Shown: one piece after another, positions 655 through 58,537 of the stretch | Position numbering within the stretch: position 1 is the first letter of the stretch | How the letters are laid out: each line of letters opens with the position of its first letter | Source of the DNA: Guptibacillus hwajinpoensis | Lineage (GTDB): Bacteria > Bacillota > Bacilli > Bacillales > Bacillaceae_O | Direction of reading: 5' to 3' | Assembly (NCBI GenBank): GCA_016841765.1 | Contig: JAENYN010000019.1 | Span: 1 to 64,000, forward strand | Length of the DNA: 64,000 bases | Notes under the pieces: model-generated | Seen by the model: only the letters and a program-made list of their open reading frames with translations | Database searches by the model: none | What the model was told of the DNA's origin: nothing | Made by a program: the position numbers and the translations under genes

Positions 655-770
655 TGGCAGGAAAGCTTCTCGCTGCCGCGTGAAAGCGTCCTTGCATGGC
701 GTGAAAGACGATGGTTATGGCGTGAAAACACCCAAAAACATCATGAAAGAGAGCCGTTCGGCGTACATAT
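655..770 (+). repeat. 21-bp phased GGCGTGAAA array A
   Basis: Five recognisable units begin at 655, 676, 697, 718 and 739, exactly 21 bp apart, with a degenerate sixth near 759. Two are perfect TGGCGTGAAA; the others are TGGCAGGAAA, CCGCGTGAAA and CATCATGAAA. The 11 bases after each core vary. The array fills the secG-esterase gap. ORFs called across it (611..844 minus and 680..940 plus) have no ribosome site and look spurious. Confidence 0.75.
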
Positions 771-4148: not shown

Positions 4149-4188
4149 AGAGCAGCTGATTGTGACCGGTCGGCTGCTCTTGTGTTTT
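4149..4188 (+). terminator. Terminator after rnr
   Basis: AGAGCAGC and GCTGCTCT form an 8-bp stem with a 16-base loop, then TGTGTTTT. It starts six bases after the rnr stop. The T tract is imperfect, so some read-through to smpB is possible. Confidence 0.6.
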
Positions 4189-4214
4189 GAGTGAAAAAGG
4201 GCATGATAACACGT

Positions 4215-4285
4215 TTAAACAAACGTTTATTTAGCCGCCGCTCCCTTCAGCTATCAAAGGCTGGATCATTGTTAAACAAACGTTT
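4215..4285. promoter_or_regulatory. Paired TTAAACAAACGTTT sites upstream of smpB
   Basis: TTAAACAAACGTTT occurs twice as an exact direct repeat (4215-4228 and 4272-4285). Each copy contains the near-palindrome CAAACGTTTR. They lie in the rnr-smpB gap, upstream of an apparent -10 region (GATATAATAT near 4342-4351). The form suggests an operator for a dimeric repressor, but no known consensus was matched with certainty. Confidence 0.4.
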
Positions 4286-4383
4286 GCTTAATTCTTTAGC
4301 CAGCTATCCCCCTTCGGTTTTCTTTCATTTAAGCAGTCATTTTGATATAATATAAGTTACGGTTAGACGAGGAGGCAGAAGAC

Positions 4384-16325: not shown

Positions 16326-16596
16326 TGGCATGAAATGGCCGGGTTATGGCGTGAAAAGCCTGGAGTATGGCGCGAAACCAGCCGTTTGGCGTGAAAAGAG
16401 GTAGTTCTGGCATGAATACACCGGTGTTTGGCCTGAAAACAGGGAGGTTCCGCGTGAAAGTGAGGTTATCTGGCGCGAATGCTGTATCCAGGCTCTGCCG
16501 CCAATGCCGTTCGGCGTGAAAAATCCTGGTAATGGCGTGAAAAGTCCTGATTACGGCGCGAAACCGGCATGTCCCGGCATGAAACAGAACTGCCGC
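16326..16596 (+). repeat. 21-bp phased GGCGTGAAA array B
   Basis: Twelve clear units start at 16326, 16347, 16368, 16387, 16408, 16429, 16450, 16471, 16512, 16533, 16554 and 16575, with a degenerate one near 16492. Steps are 21 bp except one of 19 (after the unit TGGCGCGAAA) and one degenerate pair of 41. Core variants are TGGCATGAAA, TGGCGTGAAA, CGGCGCGAAA and TGGCCTGAAA. The 19-bp step breaks the reading frame, so the antisense ORF 16240..16689 with FHA repeats is unlikely to be a protein. Confidence 0.85.
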
Positions 16597-37350: not shown

Positions 37351-37525
37351 GTGGAGGATCCGCTGCCCGGGTTGTGGGGTGGCGGTTTTTTTATTTTTAA
37401 AAGATTAGGATTGGGCAGGGGTGAAGTGTTTGGGAAGGTGTTTCGCTGAATGTGGGAGCCAGTAATAAGAGTGCACATTGGCGGATTTTCTTAAGAAAAA
37501 GAAAAACCCAGGAAGTTGCACATAA

Positions 37526-37630
37526 ATGGTTCGTTTTAAAAGGAAAAACAAATTTAAAAAAGAAAAAGGCTTCAGTTTGAAAGAAAAACGGTGTGCGCCG
37601 GTCGAATTGGTGCGGGAACATGGAAATTGA
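37526..37630 (+). CDS. 34-residue basic ORF of tandem unit 1
   Basis: It begins MVRFKRKNKFKKEKGFSLKE and ends LVREHGN. The stop comes earlier than in unit 3 because of a frame difference at GGAAATTGAG. Only a weak AGGAAG lies upstream. Function unknown; it may be a decaying copy. Confidence 0.35.
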   Translation: MVRFKRKNKFKKEKGFSLKEKRCAPVELVREHGN

Positions 37631-37751
37631 GCCGGGTTGCAGTGCTCCGGGAGGCATTTTGGTGAAGCCAGAAGCTTTGAACGATAGAAAACGGAGTATG
37701 CCTGGGCGGATTTTCTTCAGAAAAAGAAAAAGAGGGGGGAGTTGCACATAA

Positions 37752-37856
37752 ATGGGTCGTTTTAAAAGGAAAAACAAATTAAAAAAAGAAAAAGGCTTCA
37801 GTTTGAAAGAAAAACGGTGTGCGCTGGTCAAATTGGTGCGGGAACATGGAAATTGA
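37752..37856 (+). CDS. 34-residue basic ORF of tandem unit 2
   Basis: It begins MGRFKRKNKLKKEKGFSLKE and ends LVREHGN, so it is nearly identical to unit 1. GGGGGAG lies 10 bases before the ATG, the best ribosome site of the three. Not in the ORF track because of its length. Function unknown. Confidence 0.4.
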   Translation: MGRFKRKNKLKKEKGFSLKEKRCALVKLVREHGN

Positions 37857-37976
37857 GCGGAGGTGCAGTGCTCCGGGAGGCCATTCTGGTGAAGCCAGAA
37901 GCTTGAACTCAAGCAAATGGCGTATGTCTGGGTGGATTTTCTTCAGAAAAATAAAAATCAGTAAAGTTGAACAAAA

Positions 37977-38162
37977 ATGGTTCATTTTAAAAGAAAAAAC
38001 AAACTAAAAGAAGAAAAAGCATCCAGTTTGAAAGAAAAACAGAGTACGCCTGCCAAATCGTTTCACGATCAGGAAATTGAGCCGGGATTAAGAGCCCAGC
38101 GCAGCTTTCAATCAAGCAAAAAGAGCGTGCCCGCCCGCATTTTCTTCCAAAAACCTGTCTAA
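37977..38162 (+). CDS. 61-residue basic ORF of tandem unit 3
   Basis: It begins MVHFKRKNKLKEEKASSLKE and runs on through EIEPGLRAQRSFQSSKKS to PARIFFQKPV. The corresponding residues exist in units 1 and 2 in a shifted frame (EIEPGCSAPGG... and PGRIFFRK), so unit 3 may show the ancestral full-length frame. No clear ribosome site is seen. The product is strongly basic; function unknown. Confidence 0.4.
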   Translation: MVHFKRKNKLKEEKASSLKEKQSTPAKSFHDQEIEPGLRAQRSFQSSKKSVPARIFFQKPV

Positions 38163-56882: not shown

Positions 56883-57050
56883 TCAATTTCTTGCTTCAGT
56901 GGACGTTTCCAGCCCGGTGATGTCTGCCGGCGGCTGTGCGGGAATACGCATTGTGAAATCCTGCTCGATGCCCGGATGCCTGGTGACGTGCTCGATTTCC
57001 CTGATATGCGGATGCTCGATCTCCGTCTTACGCTTTTTATCTTCTGCCAT
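56883..57050 (-). CDS. 55-residue hydrophilic protein of unknown function
   Basis: Below the ORF-track cutoff. On the minus strand AAAGGAGGGATGAAG precedes ATG 57050, and the product reads MAEDKKRKTEIEHPHIREIE, continuing to RHPGIEQDFTMRIPAQPPAD and ending TEARN. It is soluble and charged. The good ribosome site and codon use like the neighbours support a real gene. No family recognised. Confidence 0.55.
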   Translation of the reverse strand: MAEDKKRKTEIEHPHIREIEHVTRHPGIEQDFTMRIPAQPPADITGLETSTEARN

Positions 57051-57158: not shown

Positions 57159-57779
57159 GTAAGTGAAAACTTGTTCATCGGATGTGAAAGGTTTCTTTAG
57201 TGTAGTGATGAACCGTGCATGAGGTTTTGTTAGGTGTGAAAACTCGTTCGAATGGCGTGAAACATGGCTCGAACGGCGCGAAAGGAACCGAATGGCGTGA
57301 AAACGAGTCGCTGTCGCGTGAAACATATATGATTCCGCGTGAAAAGAGATCAGATTGGCGCGAAAACGTGGAGAAACGGAGCGAAACTCGCCCGCCGCAA
57401 TCGCCACACCTGAAATTGATTTTGGCGTGAAAACTCGTTCATATGGCGTGAACCCCCACTCGAACGGCGCAAAAGGAACCGAAAGGCGTGAAAGTGAGTC
57501 GCAGCGGCTTGAAATATGCTCGATTCGGCGGGATACGAAACCAGATTGGCGCGAAAACAGGAAGAAACAGCGTGAAATCCGCCCGCCGCAATCGCCACAC
57601 CTGAAATTGATTTTGGCGTGAAAACTCGTTCATATGGCGTGAACCCCCACTCGAACGGCGCAAAAGGAACCGAAAGGCGTGAAAGTGAGTCGCAGCGGCT
57701 TGAAATATGCTCGATTCGGCGGGATACGAAACCAGATTGGCGCGAAAACAGGAAGAAACGGCGTGAAATCCGCCCACAG
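57159..57779 (+). repeat. 21-bp phased GGCGTGAAA array C, built from three 191-bp super-units
   Basis: About 30 units of (T/C)GGCG(T/C)GAAA run over 620 bp. Super-units start at 57215, 57406 and 57597, exactly 191 bp apart, each with steps 17-21-21-19-21-21-21-21-29. Units 2 and 3 are almost identical; unit 1 is clearly diverged but keeps the same spacing. Three irregular cores (57159, 57180, 57201) lead in. ORFs on both strands here (57156..57836) reflect the repeat and lack ribosome sites. Confidence 0.9.
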
Positions 57780-57979
57780 ATGGTGCCTAGCCATCACATC
57801 CCCACCACTCAATTCGACGAAAATATACAGCGTCACTATCGATATTTCAGTCTTTTCCGACCCATAAGCAGGAATTTCTTGTTTTATTTAGAAAAAGTAA
57901 AGGAGGCATGTAAGCAATTTTGATGACAGCTAAGGCCTGGAACTATTGTAATTGGAAAGGCAAAAAGGAGGCATATGGA

Positions 57980-58537
57980 TTGGACTGGACTGTTTTGGTC
58001 GTTTATACAGCCCTGTTTTTCTTTGCCGTGAATTTCTGCTCGGTCATTTATCACTTTTTCAGGCAAAAGGAGTTCGGTGATATCTTGTATCCCTATGGGC
58101 ATGTCTTTCAGACCGAATTTGGTTCGATTGTCATAAAGTCAACGGATACATGGCAGTATAGGGCGGCTGTGGCGCTGGCGGGGCTGTTCGTTTCCGGTGC
58201 AGCGGCAGGTTTTTACTTTTACCCGGTTTCAAGTCAACTCTTCTTTTTGCTTCCGATGGGAATGCTTTACAGTTTCACCCTGGTTCTATTATTTAATGTG
58301 ATGGAAATCAGGACAAAAGGGATCACAATAAACGGGTTCACCATTCCCTGGGAGGAAGTCAGCTCTTACCGGTGGAATGGGAGCGGACTCCATTACCGGC
58401 TCTGTATTTATCACAAGCAGGCGTTTTTCACCCGCAAACATCAAACGATGCTGATTCCGAAGGCAGAAAAAGAAAAAATAGAGGCGCTTATGACCGAAAA
58501 GCTTGGAATCGGAGAATCAAAAGGCCTGCCGGTATAG
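57980..58537 (+). CDS. Membrane protein, DUF5673-like
   Basis: This 185-residue protein has three hydrophobic helices (about 3-22, 58-80, 86-104) and a cytosolic domain with the pattern EIRTKGITINGFTIPWEEVS, then YRLCIYHKQAFF and IPKAEKEKIEALMTEKLG. This PH-like tail resembles DUF5673 proteins. The start is uncertain: AAAAAGGAGGCATATGGA favours TTG 57980 (DWTVLVV), while the track uses TTG 57920. Function unknown. It follows array C. Confidence 0.6.
   Translation: MDWTVLVVYTALFFFAVNFCSVIYHFFRQKEFGDILYPYGHVFQTEFGSIVIKSTDTWQYRAAVALAGLFVSGAAAGFYFYPVSSQLFFLLPMGMLYSFTLVLLFNVMEIRTKGITINGFTIPWEEVSSYRWNGSGLHYRLCIYHKQAFFTRKHQTMLIPKAEKEKIEALMTEKLGIGESKGLPV

Follow-up and report, generated by a model that had tools for sequence, protein, structure and literature searches.

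At positions 57159-57779 of a Guptibacillus hwajinpoensis contig (JAENYN010000019.1), inside the 64,000-nucleotide stretch analysed here (the window), short repeats follow one another at nearly constant intervals in the gap between two genes. The locus raises the question of what holds a short DNA word at such intervals, and whether the array is a local tandem repeat or one site of a wider system.

Structure of the focal array

The focal stretch (621 bp) contains 25 cores matching YGGCGYGAAA with at most two mismatches, and 17 of the steps between them are exactly 21 bp. In 1000 dinucleotide shuffles the same stretch holds on average 3.7 cores (maximum 10) and 0.016 exact 21-bp steps (maximum 1), and its spacing is thus far more regular than that of shuffled sequence. 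TRF gives a period of 191 bp in 2.8 copies (57236-57775), in agreement with the 21-bp units in 191-bp superunits described in an initial annotation; the estimate of about 30 cores made there was slightly high, 28 being reached at three mismatches.

Cores start at 57232, 57253, 57274, 57293, 57314, 57335, 57356 and 57377 in superunit 1, and run from 57423 to 57568 and from 57614 to 57759 in superunits 2 and 3. All three superunits have the spacings 21-21-19-21-21-21-21 and are joined by a core-to-core distance of 46 bp (Table 1). The spacing series first proposed holds in this central part, and the 29 and 17 at its ends add up to a single 46-bp linker that a weak core had divided. Only degenerate cores occur upstream of 57232, e.g. 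at 57180. Superunits 2 and 3 are identical at 161/162 positions and are a fresh duplication, whereas superunits 1 and 2 share 155/191 positions with the register unchanged. A diverged first unit with its spacing kept, two nearly alike units and a recent amplification had all been read from the sequence at the outset, and these figures bear them out.

The gap that holds the array is divergent, lying between a minus-strand small ORF, in which a Pfam scan found no match, and a DUF5673 gene. Pfam matches in the neighbourhood are a HAD hydrolase, DUF5673, a penicillin-binding protein and a thiolase. The window also carries an A-tract-rich intergenic tandem repeat at 37480-38084 (226-bp unit, 2.7 copies). 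It has no sequence relationship to the arrays, and the model used below gives it no strong curvature.

Table 1. Arrays, their parts and neighbouring genes in the window
Feature	Position	Strand	Remarks
Third, short array	655..727	+	four cores at 21 bp
Second array	16326..16584	+	21-21-19-21-21-21-21-41-21-21-21; congener ortholog L096 with identical spacings
Small ORF upstream of focal array	56883..57050	-	points away from array
Degenerate units ahead of superunit 1	57159..57189	+	weak cores only
Superunit 1	57232..57386	+	eight cores at 21-21-19-21-21-21-21
C-rich linker	57387..57422	+	holds CCCGCCGCAATCGCCACACC
Superunit 2	57423..57577	+	eight cores, register as superunit 1
C-rich linker, second copy	57578..57613	+	
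Superunit 3	57614..57768	+	eight cores
Gene downstream of focal array	57920..58537	+	DUF5673 protein

Dispersal and conservation of the arrays

Paired cores occur 97 times in the host genome (4.27 Mb), in about 35 arrays, and a reversed control pattern gave no matches in the same scan. They are more frequent (197) in the one congener examined. The usual plan is 21-21-19-21-21-21-21 and, after a linker of about 41 bp, a further three or four cores in 21-bp steps; in the histogram of core spacings 21 far exceeds 42, 19 and 41, and 31 is almost absent. The congener also has an array (L097) at the position matching the short array of the window, with units that do not align one to one. Absence of such arrays elsewhere, named in the initial annotation as evidence that would speak against it, is therefore not what is found: arrays recur in the same genome and in relatives.

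Information content over 23 non-redundant host copies is 1.31 bits per base in the core (GGCG close to 1.9 bits) and 0.26 in the spacer; the register is free of indels, and spacers of different host loci are 34% identical, not much above the 25% expected by chance. A neutral tandem repeat (VNTR or minisatellite) was rejected on these values, as its whole unit should be alike. Congener arrays occupy the same places relative to the genes that flank several host arrays. In the four orthologous pairs with both arrays intact, cores are identical at 258/320 positions (81%) and spacers at 190/344 (55%; Fisher p = 2e-12), although core conservation is somewhat inflated because arrays were located through their cores. 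The L043/L111 pair, in which the G000 array has decayed and L111 is intact, was left out of these totals. Spacing is identical in the four pairs, with no indel over 166 bp while spacers have diverged by about 45%; the intergenic DNA around the arrays can be aligned between the species only with many gaps. Because cores outconserve spacers and the register lacks indels, both the motif and its helical register are under selection. Selection on spacing, as first suggested, is upheld by a register common to about 30 dispersed copies and to orthologous loci of a second species.

A search for three cores in 21-bp steps, allowing up to two mismatches, matched 34/399 genomes of the order, in 22/135 genera, and left the other 365 genomes without a match. 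A reversed control matched 11 genomes, in most cases a single time or where tandem arrays are present. Of 362 further genomes of the class, all from other orders, three match at up to one mismatch. Among the matches listed in an exact scan, nearly all of those in other phyla are plain tandem repeats whose spacers are identical. Versions whose spacers diverge are present in Fictibacillus, Lentibacillus, Oceanobacillus massiliensis, Ornithinibacillus, Alkalicoccobacillus (which uses 19-bp steps too), Peribacillus deserti and further genera. On a complete chromosome of another family (G269), the longest arrays run to about 30 units in unbroken or nearly unbroken succession. In most lineages the unit consists of a W-tract, a GC-rich core, a second W-tract and a variable stretch, with a core sequence that varies by lineage.

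Two further observations concern the form of these arrays. Several Fictibacillus arrays (L063-L065, L239-L253) end in a GCGYGAACGTGTAATAAA...ACACGTACCG inverted repeat, which may mark a fixed 3' end. An array of 32 cores in Halobacillus litoralis (L158) mixes 20- and 21-bp steps.

Position relative to genes and replication

All arrays scored in the two congeners are intergenic, most often shortly past the 3' end of a gene. Gene calls at the loci compared come from a simple hexamer-based finder rather than annotation. The upstream gene is in sense with the array in 27/34 cases, and between same-direction neighbours in the two congeners the array reads with the genes 43 times and against them 10 times. 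Co-transcription is an unlikely reason for this orientation because an intrinsic terminator often separates the upstream gene from the array (20/30 in the congener, G001, and 11/12 in G269), less often so in the host genome (9/29, G000).

With the origin placed by dnaA, arrays are biased towards the origin in Lentibacillus G399 (KS p = 0.003), G269 (0.002), G117 (0.0008) and Fictibacillus G193 (0.02). Their orientation relative to replication is uniform in G399 (16/16 scored) and among the exact matches listed for G269; it is 14/17 one way in G193 and 29:11 in G117. In G269 and G193 the prevailing direction is away from the origin, in G399 and G117 towards it. A strict replication polarity as a universal rule was rejected, the sign being lineage-dependent and exceptions occurring in Fictibacillus (3/17) and G117. 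Convergent and divergent gaps are informative here because gene direction gives no cue, and 17/20 arrays in such gaps follow the sign of their own genome (p = 0.003). In the two draft congeners, with replichores inferred, local GC skew agrees at 18/24 convergent or divergent gaps. On G117:C1, about 12 arrays lie within 55 kb (2736397-2790459), much denser than on the rest of the chromosome.

Candidate roles and known systems

We put at about an even chance the reading that these are dispersed, cis-acting arrays of double-stranded DNA that seat a sequence-specific protein along a single face of the helix, with help from curvature, in chromosome organisation. Each 21-bp unit, two helical turns long, would present TWYGGCGYGAAA on the same helix face. 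Copies of one protein would line up next to each other, or bind cooperatively, over about 160-260 bp, and W-tracts flanking the GC-rich core, roughly one per turn, would bend the DNA towards it or around it. The role would be local chromosome organisation, such as anchoring, placement of loops or supercoils, segregation or division control. We infer this role in preference to single-gene control because the arrays are intergenic, mostly 3', origin-biased and mostly of one replication orientation. Counting against it are the varying core sequence, the lineage-dependent orientation sign with a mere 29:11 in G117, and the focal array itself, which lies in a divergent gap, where few arrays sit, counter to the 3'-end trend. 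The many genera that lack the pattern count against it too; either the role is confined to some lineages or the motif has changed too far for the search to catch.

Curvature offers an account that needs no dedicated protein, in which phased W-tracts curve the DNA and pin plectoneme tips or favour topoisomerase action behind transcription units. In a wedge model with manually entered angle values, where periodic A-tracts yield curvature almost by construction, the predicted ratio of end-to-end to contour length is 0.66 for arrays; breaking the spacing raises it to 0.88 and shuffling the spacers to 0.78, and random sequence gives 0.91. The effect has the same direction in eight lineages and under a second model. 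The arrays at 16451 and 57271 are among the most curved 0.2% of the window. Arrays often lie behind genes, and in Fictibacillus also at convergent gaps; in vitro, plectonemes become pinned at curved DNA about 75 bp long (PMC6301789). This account is nevertheless unlikely, for it leaves GGCG, at close to 1.9 bits, unexplained, it leans on a model that nearly guarantees curvature, and focal superunits 2 and 3 are predicted to curve only mildly (9th and 24th percentile). The DNA bending first suggested is thus predicted for arrays generally and for superunit 1, and is weak for the other two; on this modelling, curvature may assist an array and does not account for its fixed GGCG. A selfish or inert dispersed repeat of MITE-like type, tolerated in 3' intergenic DNA, would fit the 191-bp tandem duplication in the window, the gain and loss of an array between the two species (L037/L108) and about 12 closely similar congener copies at separate loci, duplicated along with adjoining repeat DNA. 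Inert copies, however, should lose core and spacer equally and gain indels, which is not observed, and neither terminal repeats nor an encoded mobility gene was recognised. Drift or recent copying of a selfish repeat does not explain the kept motif and register, and we consider this origin quite unlikely as the main explanation; the arrays are both spread and kept by selection, and the recent copying is visible in superunits 2 and 3 and in the congener subfamily. Beside that subfamily, at about 4150-4350 and 3550-3620 of L121 (G001:C41), lies a second dispersed repeat (CCCCGCTTATRCGTACRCCGCTAAGCGGGCGCC...), two words of which have no copy in the 64-kb window at up to four mismatches.

Action as RNA, for example as an element of a 3'-UTR or of an antisense transcript along which protein-binding or rut-like sites recur, would suit the arrays that follow upstream genes in sense in g1, Fictibacillus and G269. 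It is improbable given the terminators that often precede the array, the mostly antisense arrays of Lentibacillus and the lack of covariation or a stable fold: RNAalifold on both strands of 48 aligned copies yielded next to no structure and did no better than column shuffles, and single-sequence folds of the arrays have z about -0.3. An Rfam search of the window matched only the tmRNA, with no known structured RNA at the arrays. Proteins with heptapeptide repeats are hardly credible as the product, even though a 21-bp unit spans seven codons and some arrays are overlapped by weak ORFs. The frame is broken by the conserved 19-bp step and the 41-bp linker, the spacers are little constrained, and the best frame is open over 166 bp in at most 25/48 copies (about 16 with shuffled spacers).

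For the protein-seating array, the kept features are the 10-bp word and the helical register, and it is difficult to see why they would be retained at dozens of loci unless a protein partner reads them or the DNA itself does mechanical work. A tentative extension, which we think possible and rather doubtful, is a putative novel chromosome-organising system of Bacillaceae in which origin-biased, replication-oriented, helically phased sites would bind a protein that may be of ParB/Noc type and would act in segregation, nucleoid occlusion or domain formation, the recognised word changing from one genus to another. If true, a factor dedicated to the nucleoid or to segregation would recur in Bacillaceae and add a layer now missing from the picture of chromosome organisation, and array DNA can serve directly as bait for the binder.

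The ParB-family resemblance is a lead, not an assignment. The unit TWYGGC-GYGAAA has the right half of parS (TGTTTCAC-GTGAAACA) and likewise of Noc-binding sites (NBS, TATTTCCC-GGGAAATA), with the T/A flanks (sequences from PMC7383237). NBS avoid the terminus (PMC4331003), and arrays are likewise origin-biased and depleted near the terminus in G399, G269, G117 and G193. Identity with parS or NBS was rejected, the left half matching mostly at 3-4/8 positions and forming no 14-16 bp palindrome; those are also single sites, whereas the arrays are direct and phased at 21 bp. REP/BIME elements of enterobacteria, with a proposed link to supercoiling (PMC3733652), resemble the arrays in being dispersed and extragenic, often at 3' ends or in convergent gaps. 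They are, however, foldable palindromic units of 20-40 bp, and the arrays are direct, phase-locked and longer, with no consensus fold or covariation, so a REP identity was rejected. CRISPR arrays share a short conserved word and variable spacers of fixed length, yet are expected to have repeats of about 23-50 bp and unique spacers of about 25-50 bp; here a 10-bp core with a 9-11 bp spacer (11 bp in the regular unit) recurs at dozens of loci, and the spacers descend together with their locus. The initial statement that no known CRISPR, REP or BOX type fits stands for CRISPR and REP, as tested.

No earlier description of such arrays was found in the literature searched, which omits most subscription journals, and the versions present in many genera suggest that the arrays are a kind of protein-docking or DNA-shaping chromosomal site not described before. 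The bcr elements of the Bacillus cereus group, bcr1 among them, compared by description only, are likewise dispersed, intergenic repeats of Bacillus; they fold as stem-loops and are not known to have the phased core seen here. Bacillus subtilis reportedly has some ten copies of a 190-bp repeat, all in the half of the chromosome that contains the origin (ascribed to Kunst, 1997); by description these are alike in length and position and are not reported as phased arrays. Plasmid centromere and iteron arrays are likewise phased direct repeats, and those load a protein; unlike them, the arrays described here are present in dozens of chromosomal copies with spacers that are not conserved.
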